Shown here in pieces: positions 31,649 to 37,582 of a stretch of 50,643 bases of DNA. The DNA is from Gemmatimonadota bacterium (lineage in GTDB: Bacteria > Gemmatimonadota > Gemmatimonadetes > Gemmatimonadales > Gemmatimonadaceae): positions 1 through 50,643 of the forward strand of contig QHVE01000016.1 in NCBI GenBank assembly GCA_003223455.1, in the 5' to 3' direction. The notes beneath the pieces were generated by a model. It was given only the letters and a program-made list of their open reading frames with translations, was not told the DNA's origin and searched no databases. Both the position numbers and the translations under genes were made by a program. The first letter of the stretch is position 1; every line of letters begins with the position of its first letter.

Positions 31649-31665
31649 CGACGCTCAGCGCGTCG
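31649..31665. terminator. Small hairpin between converging genes
   Basis: A 6-bp perfect stem (CGACGC / GCGTCG) with a five-base loop overlaps the stop codon of the glycoside hydrolase and follows the DUF1697 stop. It is a candidate bidirectional terminator, but the stem is short and there is no T-run. Confidence 0.3.
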
Positions 31666-33358
31666 TCCCCCACTCCAGCACCACGAGCGACACGCCCTGG
31701 CGCGGAAGGCGGAACGTCAGCGTGCTGCCGCCGTTCGTGGCCTGCGCTGCGACCGGCTCGATCGTCGCGAGCTTCGAGGCGTCGAGCAGCCGCGCATACT
31801 GCGCATCGTTCGGCGCGATCGGACTTCCCATGCGCTTCCATTCACCGTACGCGTTGCTGTGCGTCTCGTCGATGCGATAGTGTGTGACGTGCGCCGCCGA
31901 TGCCGCGGGAGGCAGCCCCGCGAGCGCGAGAGTGACGTCCGCATCGGGACCCGCGACGTCGTCGTCATGATAGTGCCAGACCAGGACGGCGAGCGTCGAG
32001 CCGTCGAGGCTCGCCAGCGCCGACACATCCGGTCGCTCGCGCACCCCCGCGGCGACGATGCGCTCCAGTGGCACCTCGGCCGAGCTCTCCGTCGCGATGC
32101 GCGCGCCGCCCATCTTTGAGAACATCCGGAAGACGTTCAGCACCGGCAGGTCGATCCCGTTCGTCGCGAGCGCACGAAAGCCGGCGAAGTACGGCTGGTC
32201 CTCGAACTCGAACGCCCACGTGAGTGCACCTTCCAGGTGTACGCCGTGCTTCGCCGCGAGCAATTGCTTGCGCGCGAACACTGCCGCGGTGTAACTCGAG
32301 TACATCGTGCCGTTTCGATACCCGAGCGAGGCGCCCTGACACGCCGCGCACCCTTCGGGGTCGGACTCGCCGATCACGATCGGCTTCGCACGCAGCTCGG
32401 GCACGGCGGCGATCATCTGGAAGCCGCGGTCGATCGTCGCGAGCTGATTCGCGATCCCCATGCGCACGTGACCGTCGACGTATGTCGGCGAGCCCTTGGC
32501 GTGGAATGAGAGGAAGTCCGTCGGGGTGCCCACGGCCCCCGTCGCATAGTTCCTCCCGTTGACGACGTGCCGGAGAAAGCCTTCCATGAAGGCGCCGCCG
32601 TGACTCGCGACGTCCGGCCCTCCCACGCGCGCCGTCGGCAGCGCACGCCGCACCGCCGCGACCGCGAAGTCGTGCAGCTTGTAGAAATCCTCGGGGCTTC
32701 CGCGCCAGTACGCCGGAATGTTCGCCTCGTTCCACACCTCCCAGTACCAGTACTCCACCTCGGCGCGACCGTAGCGCTCGACGCAGTGCTTCGTCCACCG
32801 GTACACGAGCTCCCCCCACTTTGCGTAGTCCTTCGGCGGGTACGCCCATCCGGTGGTGATCAGATCGTAGCGCATTCCCGGCCGCCACTCGTGCTGATAC
32901 GGCTCCGGCTTCGTCGACAGCGCCTTCGGCATGAACCCGATCTGCACGTACGGTCTGACGCCGCGAGCGAGATAGGTATCGATGATCCGGTCGAGCACTG
33001 TCCAGTCGTACACGGCGCGTCCGTGCGCGTCCTCGGTGTAGACGTTGGTGCTCCCCCACTTCAACGCCGGAGTGCCGTCCCCCGTGGTCAGCAGGTTGTG
33101 CGTGCGGAAGTACACTTGCTTCGGACGCAGCGCGCCCAGCTCGCCGATCAGCTTCCGCCCGTCCTTCATCGTCGCGTAGTTCGGCTCGTCGGCGCCGAAG
33201 AAGCGCCAGATCGGTTCGAGCGGGCCGAGCGTCCGGCTCGCGTCGACGCGGATCGTGACGGGGAAGGGCGCAGCACTCGCGTCGTTCTGCCCACTGGCAG
33301 CGCTCGCGATCGAGACGCACGCCAGGAGCGAGAGCGGAAGGATTGCGAGTCGCGGCAT
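31655..33358 (-). CDS. Exported GH39-like glycoside hydrolase
   Basis: The 567-residue protein has a signal peptide (RLAILPLSLLACVSIASAASGQ). A TIM-barrel of the GH39/beta-xylosidase type follows, with the acid/base motif YWEVWNEANIPAYW and a likely nucleophile strand KPIVIGESDPEGC. DEPNYATMKDGRKLIGELG and YPPKDYAKWGELVYRW are typical of the barrel. The C-terminal part (after about 430) is a beta-sandwich. It probably removes xylose, iduronate or a similar terminal sugar outside the cytosol. A CAAC pair right after the nucleophile is unusual. No sugar transporter or other CAZyme is adjacent. Confidence 0.82.
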   Translation of the reverse strand: MPRLAILPLSLLACVSIASAASGQNDASAAPFPVTIRVDASRTLGPLEPIWRFFGADEPNYATMKDGRKLIGELGALRPKQVYFRTHNLLTTGDGTPALKWGSTNVYTEDAHGRAVYDWTVLDRIIDTYLARGVRPYVQIGFMPKALSTKPEPYQHEWRPGMRYDLITTGWAYPPKDYAKWGELVYRWTKHCVERYGRAEVEYWYWEVWNEANIPAYWRGSPEDFYKLHDFAVAAVRRALPTARVGGPDVASHGGAFMEGFLRHVVNGRNYATGAVGTPTDFLSFHAKGSPTYVDGHVRMGIANQLATIDRGFQMIAAVPELRAKPIVIGESDPEGCAACQGASLGYRNGTMYSSYTAAVFARKQLLAAKHGVHLEGALTWAFEFEDQPYFAGFRALATNGIDLPVLNVFRMFSKMGGARIATESSAEVPLERIVAAGVRERPDVSALASLDGSTLAVLVWHYHDDDVAGPDADVTLALAGLPPAASAAHVTHYRIDETHSNAYGEWKRMGSPIAPNDAQYARLLDASKLATIEPVAAQATNGGSTLTFRLPRQGVSLVVLEWGTTR

Positions 33359-33431
33359 CGGAGTTGGATGAAGGGTCTTGCCGAAGGACAGCCAGGGCCG
33401 ACTGATTCTATCCACTCTCGGAGGACTGCAC

Positions 33432-33836
33432 ATGGCCATTCGCGTCGTCCGCCTCGGCACGCCCCGCGCCCCGGGTGAGGGTGTCCGCCTGGGCACCGTC
33501 CGTCGTCCGCCGCGTGGGGTGCCCAAGCGCGACTTCGCCCGGCGGGACTTCTATGACGTCTGGCTCCCCGAGCTCGCCCCGTCCGCGCCGACGGTCTCTT
33601 GGGCGCTCGCGGACCCGTGGACTGACGCCCGGTGGCGGCGCTACGAGCGCATCTATGTAAAGGAGATGGCGACTCCCGCCGCCCGCCACCTCATCGACCT
33701 GCTCGCCGTCCTGTCGAAGACGACGAATTTTTCCGTGGGCTGCTACTGCGAGGACGCGAGCCGATGCCATCGCAGCCTGCTCGCCCGGCTGCTCGAGGAG
33801 GCGGGGGCCACGATGACCGGCGCGCCCGAGGCGTAG
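33432..33836 (+). CDS. DUF488 family protein
   Basis: The 134-residue DUF488 protein has RRPPRGVPKRDFARRDFYDVWLPELAPS, WRRYERIYVKEM, and a C-terminal FSVGCYCEDASRCHRSLLARLL with the conserved Cys/His cluster (CYCxxxxxCHR). The start at 33432 follows GGAGG eight bases upstream. The function is unknown; the CYC...CHRS motif may bind metal or form a redox pair. It diverges from the GH39-like gene, whose start is 73 bp away, so the small gap must hold both promoters. Confidence 0.88.
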   Translation: MAIRVVRLGTPRAPGEGVRLGTVRRPPRGVPKRDFARRDFYDVWLPELAPSAPTVSWALADPWTDARWRRYERIYVKEMATPAARHLIDLLAVLSKTTNFSVGCYCEDASRCHRSLLARLLEEAGATMTGAPEA

Positions 33837-33937: not shown

Positions 33938-36900
33938 ATGTTGCCTCGCAGCTCCGCCTCTCGCGTCGATGCCGACGCGCCGCCGGCCCTCCGGCGTTTC
34001 AGTTCGCGACTCGGGCGCATGTCGCTCCTCATCGGCGCGACCGTCCTCACGGCTGCCCAGGCGGGTGCTCAGAAGCTGCAGTTCCGGGCGCTCACCCCCG
34101 ACGACGGCCTCTCCAGCTCGCGCGTTCAGTCCATCGTGCAGGACAGCCGTGGCTTCATGTGGTTCGGCACGACGAAGGGCCTGAACCGGTATGATGGCTA
34201 CGGCTTCGCGGTCTACCGCCATCGCGCCGGCGAGGAAGCGTCGCTCGCTGGCAACGAGGCGCTCACGATCTACGAGGACGCGCAGAAGACCCTCTGGATC
34301 GGTACGCCCGCCGGCCTCAGTCGCTACGACCGCGAACGCGACGCATTCCAGAATTTCAGCGTCGTCGCGGGCGACACCGTCCAGGTCAGCGCCATCCTCG
34401 AAGCGGAAGGCACGCTGTGGCTCGGGACCGCGCGGGGACTCTACAAGTTCGATCGGGCGACCGGCAAGGCGAGCTCATACGGCGGGCAGCTGGCCGGCTT
34501 CGATGTCCAGGGGCTGTTCGAGGACTCGGGCAAGCATCTCTGGATCGGCACGAAGGGCAACGGCGCCTGGGAGCTCGATCCGCGAGCCGGCACGCTGAAG
34601 GCCTGGGTCGTCGACCCCGAGAGCTCCGACTCGCCCACGCTCTACAAGGCGAAGGACGCGCGCGTGTTCGTCGAGGATGCGGACGGTGCCATCTACATGG
34701 CGTTCGCGGACGGCGGTCTCGCGAAGATCAATCGCGCGAGTGGCGGTGTCACGCTGTTTCAGCACGACGCCGATGATCCCTATAGCATCGCGATCAATGC
34801 GGTGTACTCGCTCCTCCTCGACGGCAGGCGCGGACTCTGGATCGGCACGGAGAACGGTGGACTCGACTACCTCGACTTCGCCACTCGGCGCTTTTCGCAC
34901 AACCAGTTCGACCCCAACAACCCCACGGGGCTGAACAGCAATTCGATCTGGGCCATCCATCGTGATCAATCCGGCACGCTCTGGCTCGGGACCTTCGCCG
35001 GCGGCGTCAACATCTCGCTGCAGAACGGCAACGCGATCCGCCGCTTTCGCTCCGTCGCCGGTGACGCGACGAGCCTGAGCTTCAACTCCGTCATGGCGTT
35101 CCTCGACGACTCGCGTGGTGGCACCTGGGTCGCGACCGACGGGGGAGGGCTGAATCGCTTCGACCGCACCACCGGAAAGTTCCAGCGTTTCAGCAAGGCG
35201 ACGAGCAACCTGAACTCCGACGCCGTGCTGTCGCTCACGGAGGACCGTTTCGGCAAGATCTGGATCGCGACGTGGGCGGGCGGCGTCAGCCGCTTCGATC
35301 CGCAGACCGGACGATTCACGCCGTACACGCCGAAGACGAGCGCGATGGCCGACGACCACGCCTTCGCCGTCCACGCTGACCGCGGGGGCCGTGTCTGGAT
35401 CGGTACCTACCAGAAAGGCTTGCAGCGCGTCGATCCTGCGACGGGCACATTCGCCGCGCCGATCCCCCTCGGCAAGGGCAAGCAGAGCCAGATCCGCGTC
35501 ATCACCGAGGTCGCCGACGGGAGACTCCTGCTCGGCACGATCGGTGGAGGCATGTACCTGTACGATCCGAGCACCGGGCGACAGCGCGCGTACCCCATCG
35601 GCAAGGACGGCATCAGTGGCAACGCCGTTCAGGCGATCGTCGAGACCGAACCCGGCATCGTGTGGATCGGCACCTCGAACGGGCTCGATCGGCTCGATCG
35701 CGGCACCGACAAGATCGAGCACTACACCGAGGCCGACGGGCTGCCCGGCACGGCGGTGAACGGGATCGCCCCCGACGGCTCCGGCCAGCTCTGGCTCAGT
35801 GGCGATCGCGGCGTCGCCCGCTTCAACCCCGCGACCAAGCGGGCGAAGACGTACACCGTTGCCGACGGACTGCAGGGCAGTGAGTTCAACTCCGGCTCGT
35901 ACTACAGAGCGCGTGACGGCGCGATCTTCTTCGGAGGCGCCAAGGGCTTCAACATGATCGAGCCCGAGCGAATCGCCGAGAACACGCACGCGCCGCCGAT
36001 CGCGCTGACGGGCTTCCAGCTGTACAACAAGCCGGTCGGCATCGGCGTCGACGGCTCGCCCCTCGAGCAGAGCATCACCGTCGCGAGGAAGCTCGTGCTG
36101 CACCACGATCAGAGCGTCTTCACGATCGAGTTCGCGGCGCTCGACTTCGTGGCGCCCGAGAAGAATCAGTACGCCTACAAGCTCGAAGGGCTCGACGACG
36201 ACTGGAACGCCGTTGGCACGAAGCGGGTCGCCTCCTACACGAACCTCCCCGCCGGCAACTACGTCTTCCGTGTGAAGGGCACGAACAACGACGGACGCTG
36301 GAACCAGGAAGGCGCCTCGTTGGCGATCAGGATCGTGCCGCCCTTCTGGGCATCGTGGTGGTTCCGCGCCATCGTCCTCCTCGCGGCGGCGTGGGGCATC
36401 CGCTACGCGCTGCGCATCCAGCGCGAGCGCCGCGAGAGCCTCGAGCGCATGAACGCGACGCTCGCCGAGGCGGCGGACCGCGATCGCAAGGCGCAGCAGT
36501 ACCTCGAGCGCAACGTGCTCGAGGTGCTCGATGCGATGGAGCGCTTCTCGGAGGGCGATCTCTCCGTCGGCCTGGTCGTCGAGCGCGACGACGCCATCGG
36601 GCGACTCCGACTCGGTGTGAACAAGGCGGTGCTCAACATCCGGTCGATGGTGCAGCAGGTTCGCGAGGTGCTCGACTCCACGGTGGTGACGAGCCGTCAG
36701 ATCCAGATGGAGACGAACGAGCTGGCGCGCGGCGCGGAGGAGCAGATCAATCAGACGCTGCTCGTCGCCGGTGCCGCTCAACAGATGGCCCAGACGGTCT
36801 CGGCGAGCAACACCAGCATCGCCGAGGCGTCCGACATCGCGCAGCGATCAGGGACGGAGGCACACGAAGGCGGCCGCATCGTCCGCGACACCTTCGCCGG

Positions 36901-37582
36901 GATGGACGAGATCGTGACGACCGTCGGCATCTCCGCGCGGACCGTGCAGTCCCTCGGCCGAAGCAGCGAGCAGATCGGCGCGATCACACGCGTGATCGAG
37001 CAGATCGCCGACCAGACCGAGCTCCTCTCGCTCAACGCGGCGATCGAGGCGGCGCGCGCCGGTCGCCACGGCCGCACCTTCGCCGTCGTCGCGCAGGAAG
37101 TGCAGCGCCTGGCCGAGCGCACGGCTCAGGCGACGAGCGAGATCGCCAAGGTCATCGAGCACAACCAGCGCGAAGTGGAGACCGCCGTCGAGGCGATGTC
37201 GCGCGTCGGCGGACAGGTGGAGAAGGGCAAGGAGCTCGTCGACAAGGCGGGCAGCGCCCTCGACGCGATCATCGACAACGCCGAGCGGATGCTCGCCTGC
37301 ATCCAGCAAGTCCGTGCGTCGAGCGAGGAGCAGTCGTCCACCACCGCGCACATCAGCGAGAACGTCGAGACGATCTCGCGCGTGACGCACTCGGCCGTGC
37401 GAGGCAATCAGTCGGTGGCGACCTCGGTGCAGGAGCTCAGCACCATGATCGAGGACCTGCAGCAGCGGGTCGCACGATTCCACCTCGAGGGCATCGAGCT
37501 GCAGCCCCCGCTTCCCGAGATCAAGGTGGACGTCGCCAGGCTCCCGTCGGCCCCCCGCGAGCTGGTCTCCCTCGACTCCTGA
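33938..37582 (+). CDS. Two-propeller/Y_Y_Y sensor fused to a chemotaxis (MCP) output domain
   Basis: The 1214-residue protein has an N-terminal signal or anchor. Then come two-component-type beta-propeller repeats (about 40-700, repeated LWIGT and WFGT units) and a Y_Y_Y domain (about 744-802). One transmembrane helix ([19 protein letters not shown], about 806-825) follows. A HAMP-like region ([19 protein letters not shown], about 862-908) leads to an MCP signalling domain with the hairpin tip [19 protein letters not shown] (about 1020-1063). The usual output after such propellers is a histidine kinase; here it is an MCP. The start could be ATG 33938 or ATG 34019. It probably senses a carbohydrate-like ligand outside. 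Confidence 0.88.

Follow-up and report, generated by a model that had tools for sequence, protein, structure and literature searches.

A BT4663-type propeller-Y_Y_Y ectodomain joined to an MCP hairpin in a Gemmatimonadota bacterium

Sensors whose ectodomain consists of two seven-bladed Reg_prop propellers and a Y_Y_Y domain are used by gut bacteria to switch on sugar-degrading genes. Structures of this ectodomain type include 4A2L and 4A2M, those of BT4663, a heparin/heparan-sulphate-sensing hybrid two-component system (HTCS) of Bacteroides thetaiotaomicron, and 3V9F, that of BT3049, another HTCS ectodomain. The protein described here is encoded in a stretch of 50,643 nucleotides of DNA from a soil bacterium of the Gemmatimonadota (hereafter, the window) and resembles BT4663 and BT3049 in its two propellers, its Y_Y_Y domain, its signal peptide, its single transmembrane (TM) exit and its fold. 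However, BT4663 goes on into a histidine kinase and a response regulator, whereas the fusion protein goes on into a coiled coil, a HAMP domain and the hairpin of a methyl-accepting chemotaxis protein (MCP). A scissor-like signalling movement has been reported for BT4663 (PMC8534201).

Gene, domain architecture and neighbourhood

The fusion gene is intact: it forms a single open reading frame on the forward strand that runs uninterrupted from ATG to stop, and its GC content by codon position is that of a genuine gene. The encoded protein contains, in order, a signal peptide, two seven-bladed Reg_prop propellers, a Y_Y_Y domain, one TM helix, a coiled coil, a HAMP domain and an MCP hairpin (Table 1). 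The original prediction had proposed beta-propeller repeats of the hybrid-sensor kind with a Y_Y_Y domain, followed by a C-terminal part with a complete MCP hairpin in place of a kinase, and both halves of that proposal are borne out. The Reg_prop, Y_Y_Y and MCPsignal scores are all far above chance, with MCPsignal reaching 150.4 bits against a curated cut-off of 34.6 and its profile fully covered (1-172), and the hairpin tip quoted in the prediction lies within this match. Pfam finds no kinase domain in the protein, and likewise no histidine kinase, receiver or AraC-type output domain. The alignment with BT4663 (PDB 4A2L; E = 2.7e-120) covers the whole ectodomain from one end to the other. 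Its AlphaFold2 (AF2) model is mostly confident, and a Foldseek search with that model returns 4A2M/4A2L as the best PDB match at a TM-score of 0.86-0.88 by target length. The cytoplasmic part of the model is of low confidence and was used for helicity alone.

The TM region (about residues 803-827), which follows a PPFWxxWWFR motif, is the most hydrophobic segment of the protein, and a long helix of the AF2 model starts there. The signal peptide is the second most hydrophobic segment, and would be shorter if translation began at an internal ATG (34019). Since there is a signal peptide and a single hydrophobic helix after PPFWxxWWFR, the predicted topology is that of hybrid sensors, with a cleavable signal and one TM, and not the classical TM1/TM2 arrangement. 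The HAMP domain gives no Pfam match in the window copy at a cut-off of 25, whereas the paralogue scores 35.7 bits and a homologue from a named metagenome-assembled genome (MAG) scores 19 bits; the window copy does align with the HAMP domain of 3ZX6. Neither this domain nor the coiled coil had been part of the original prediction, which also stopped short of the paralogue, the cheA and cheW loci and the absence of flagella.

Table 1. Features of the fusion gene and its neighbours in the window.
Feature	Position	Strand	Evidence
Propeller-Y_Y_Y-TM-HAMP-MCP fusion protein, 1214 residues	33938..37582, stop included	+	Open reading frame; Pfam; codon-position GC
Signal peptide, residues 1-44	33938..34069	+	Sequence; hydrophobicity; BT4663 homology starts directly after
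Two seven-bladed Reg_prop beta-propellers, residues 45-735	34070..36142	+	Pfam Reg_prop (E = 7.3e-47); full-length 4A2L alignment; AF2/Foldseek against 4A2M/4A2L
Y_Y_Y domain, residues 737-799	36146..36334	+	Pfam (2e-20)
PPFWxxWWFR motif and single TM helix, about residues 801-827	36338..36418	+	Hydrophobicity; start of long helix in AF2 model
Coiled coil between TM and HAMP	36419..36517	+	Homologue lengths differ by multiples of 7 only
HAMP domain	36521..36652	+	Below Pfam threshold here; paralogue and homologue scores; 3ZX6 alignment
MCP four-helix-bundle hairpin, 40H-like length	36653..37492	+	Pfam; arm lengths against Tsr and co-resident MCPs
Pfam MCPsignal core, residues 965-1150	36830-37387	+	Pfam (5.9e-44)
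Hairpin tip of 19 residues, CheA/CheW-contact region, residues 1024-1042	37007..37063	+	Pfam; alignment
Candidate methylation site, helix MH1, 10 residues	36767..36796	+	One position off consensus
Candidate methylation site, helix MH2, 10 residues	37316..37345	+	Exact fit to [ASTG][ASTG]xx[EQ][EQ]xx[ASTG][ASTG]
DUF488 gene, just upstream	33378..33836	+	Pfam; adjoins G363 orthologue too
Glycoside hydrolase family 39 (GH39) gene, divergent from DUF488-sensor pair	31655..33526	-	Pfam (1e-54)

The GH39 gene beside the sensor is a weak hint of a possible carbohydrate ligand, drawn from the neighbourhood in this genome, since the contig of the orthologue ends. In a second genome, G363, a fusion paralogue on contig C27 (L071:11281-14904, minus strand) lies amid genes judged by eye to be copper-resistance-like, namely CopC/CopD-like, CopB-like, CsoR-like and copper P-type ATPase-like genes. 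Because of that setting, ligands may differ within the family, with some members sensing something other than glycans.

Linker and hairpin

The linker between the TM helix and HAMP, measured from WWFR to the start of HAMP (YLxxNV), is 54 residues long in the window protein, the paralogue, L049 and L074, 47 in L051, 40 in L050 and L052, and 82 in the Kapaibacterium protein. All of these lengths are congruent to 5 modulo 7, which places them whole heptads apart; as a rough estimate, the chance that three independent length differences would all be multiples of seven is about 1/343. Since the differences are without exception multiples of seven, the spacing favours a register-preserving coiled coil that would carry the signal across this segment, which is charged in the window protein. 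The fusion shows that a sensor of this type can be connected to an MCP by a coiled coil with heptad spacing, and the natural range of linkers of 40, 47, 54 and 82 residues makes transmission from the ectodomain to HAMP testable.

By alignment, each arm of the hairpin is 14 residues longer in the window protein than in a Tsr chimera, and 14 residues, or two heptads, shorter than in the co-resident MCPs L007, L008 and L009 (138/145 vs. 152/159). The arms of the fusion are symmetric with whole-heptad length differences, and the same 40H-like length is found in every fusion homologue measured. With Tsr taken as 36H, the fusions would be 40H-like and most other MCPs of the genome 44H-like, labels that derive from length and not from a class model. 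The Thermotoga MCP 2CH7 was set aside for this assignment on account of an ambiguous N-arm in phmmer, and Tsr and the co-resident MCPs were used. One further MCP of the genome, L010 on contig C47, carries HAMP-like units in repeat and has a far shorter hairpin (114/124), which adds a third length class to this single-CheA genome.

The tip of the hairpin is conserved with a slight deviation, RHGRT being found where the commonest form has EQGRG. In the G025 protein (L051/L073), an asparagine replaces the usually conserved arginine of the tip. Of the two candidate methylation motifs, the one in MH2 is an exact consensus and the one in MH1 a near match.

PMC9855816, citing Herrera Seitz 2014, reports that receptors of different length class do not form mixed signalling teams and signal independently. 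Because its length class differs from that of most co-resident MCPs, it is doubtful that the fusion shares an array with them. As the genome has a single CheA and most of its receptors are 44H-like, two options are left for the 40H-like fusion: core units of its own that use this same CheA, or no coupling at all. This single-CheA genome with two length classes offers a test case for the length-class rule.

Distribution and origin of the join

The genome (G000; 4.96 Mb in 127 contigs, 96% complete) encodes a paralogue on contig C6 that is 52% identical to the window protein and has the same architecture. Every Reg_prop match that was detected in this genome falls within these two genes, as do its two Y_Y_Y matches, both in propeller-Y_Y_Y-MCP proteins. 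Four of 395 genomes of the phylum contain the architecture: G000 with two copies, G363 with two full copies and a contig-end fragment (L165) that resembles the paralogue, G025 with one copy, and G283 with one copy cut by contig ends. Besides G000, the carriers comprise two sister species, a second family (G283) and one named Gemmatimonadaceae MAG, and all of them keep the MCP. In G363, the orthologue of the window gene retains DUF488 and a molybdopterin-type oxidoreductase as neighbours. The phylum matches of 1200-1300 residues with a partial junction match are, among those read (L053-L059), kinase-bearing, and other homologues read from the phylum carry histidine kinases.

The original prediction had called for a search for orthologues with the same domain order, noting that a kinase in place of the MCP would point to an assembly join. 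That search found no kinase-bearing orthologue among close relatives with the join, all of which carry the MCP, and the kinase proteins of the phylum that were placed in the tree lie outside their clade. The idea that an error of assembly or annotation had fused a kinase sensor with an MCP was rejected: nothing was found in its favour, and its probability is negligible in view of the paralogue, the orthologues in independent assemblies, their grouping in one clade and the synteny in G363. The join is real and rare.

A wider scan covered 84,980 species, of which the best 80 matches, a sample biased towards relatives of the query, were considered. Five of these 80 carry an MCP: L073, a propeller-Y_Y_Y relative from Gemmatimonadetes bacterium 2013_60CM_65_52, and four in which the MCP was confirmed by Pfam, namely L074 (Gemmatimonadaceae GZL_ISSM_2_bin.59), L075 (Candidatus Kapaibacterium), L076 (bacterium Zod_Metabat.1116, an unclassified bacterium) and L143 (Carboxylicivirga). 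The other 75 have HisKA, HATPase, GGDEF, SpoIIE-type PP2C, GAF or HTH ends, or are truncated or unassigned. Among 395 genomes sampled from the phylum of the Carboxylicivirga MAG, the fusion was seen in that MAG alone, which has a second full-length copy (58% identity across the junction query); no MCP was present in the 14 best matches read from the other genomes. In the 4.4 Mb MAG that encodes L076, which may be incomplete, a CheA dimerisation domain was not found.

In a tree of the ectodomains, those of the Gemmatimonadota fusions group together in a single clade (SH-aLRT 100), and L075, L143 and the Gemmatimonadota kinases included all fall outside it. The tree needs four label changes, and since its starred branches force at least two, the propeller-Y_Y_Y-MCP join probably had more than one origin. 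The Kapaibacterium, Carboxylicivirga and unclassified-bacterium fusions are probably independent of the Gemmatimonadota clade. Because most relatives of the ectodomain drive kinases, sensing for gene control was probably its ancestral role.

Chemosensory partners and proposed working

The window contains neither cheA nor cheW, as had been predicted, and both genes are present elsewhere in the genome, where all CheW-domain matches fall on contigs C110 and C45. The single CheA of the genome, with Hpt, P2, dimerisation, ATPase and CheW domains, is encoded on C110 next to cheW, cheY and cheC (the last two named by eye from their translations), and C45 carries cheR, cheB and further CheW-domain frames. 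A DUF4388-TPR gene on C45 (L018:1336-3228) adjoins cheR, cheB and the CheW-domain frames, one of which is broken by a stretch of N. All four genomes with the fusion encode exactly one CheA; none has a match to FliG or flagellin, and PilT is over the cut-off in all four. Movement, should that be the output, is expected to be pilus-based because FliG and flagellin gave no match and PilT is present, and it would be the likeliest output. The suggestion that the protein reports to the chemotaxis array or to a CheA-like path is supported, with two qualifications: a path to CheA is possible because the genome has a single CheA and several CheW genes, but sharing of the array is doubtful on grounds of length class, and the chemotaxis in question would here be pilus-driven.

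Taken together, we consider it likely that the window protein is a transmembrane chemoreceptor that takes its input from an HTCS ectodomain of the BT4663 type and signals via CheA, most likely to type IV pili; the sensor would then probably steer movement rather than switch genes directly. The secreted double propeller and Y_Y_Y domain would dimerise outside the inner membrane and bind a ligand, most likely a glycan fragment. A rearrangement of the dimer, comparable to the scissor-like movement of BT4663, could pass through one TM helix per subunit and be relayed by the in-register coiled coil to HAMP and then to the MCP hairpin, which would alter the activity of the only CheA through CheW. 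CheR and CheB could adapt the receptor by methylation, and the output would most likely be type IV pilus movement because no flagellar genes were found. The shorter hairpin class, the kinase output of most relatives of the ectodomain, the lack of an adjacent che gene and the slight deviation of the tip count against this explanation.

Coupling to CheA could also serve an output other than movement, in an alternative-function pathway acting on gene expression, biofilm or cyclic nucleotides. The absence of flagella is consistent with such a pathway, as is the location of the che genes beside TPR and DUF4388-TPR genes and not beside motility genes, and the relatives of the ectodomain normally control gene expression; however, CheY, CheC, CheR and CheB are all present and three PilT genes of the genome are over the cut-off, and we regard this alternative as unlikely. 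It is also conceivable, if improbable, that the fusion operates outside the main array, either in clusters of its own owing to the shorter hairpin or as a CheA-independent scaffold. Arms two heptads shorter than those of most co-resident MCPs would suit such an arrangement, as would the presence of only one CheA per genome, but the hairpin tip is conserved, the 40H-like length is constant in all homologues measured, and data from Shewanella leave room for core units of unlike class within the same array, served by a single CheA (PMC9855816).

The reading of the protein as a chemoreceptor that signals via CheA can be extended, tentatively, to a small glycan-sensing family that guides the pilus-driven surface movement of non-flagellated soil Gemmatimonadota to polymer sources, with the kinase branch wholly replaced in this genome and a hairpin class unlike that of the other receptors of a single-CheA system. 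A chemoreceptor with such an ectodomain would widen the range of chemoreceptor inputs to the very large double-propeller glycan sensors that in Bacteroides control genes.

Both halves of the protein belong to known families, and their combination through an HTCS ectodomain, one TM and a heptad-spaced coiled coil appears undescribed. No paper on it was found in the open-access library searched, a scope outside which lie most subscription journals and domain-architecture databases, and protein databases may list the architecture. In comparison with propeller-Y_Y_Y proteins that end in HisKA, HATPase, GGDEF, PP2C/SpoIIE, GAF or HTH domains, the input module is alike and the output is not. With transmembrane MCPs (MCPsignal family, 40H-like) such as Tsr and CtpM, the fusion shares the conserved hairpin tip and probably the HAMP domain and the methylation helices. 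It differs from these receptors in that its ectodomain comprises about 760 residues where theirs is a four-helix bundle or a Cache domain, in that a cleavable signal peptide and one TM take the place of TM1/TM2, and in that a coiled coil is present between the TM and HAMP.
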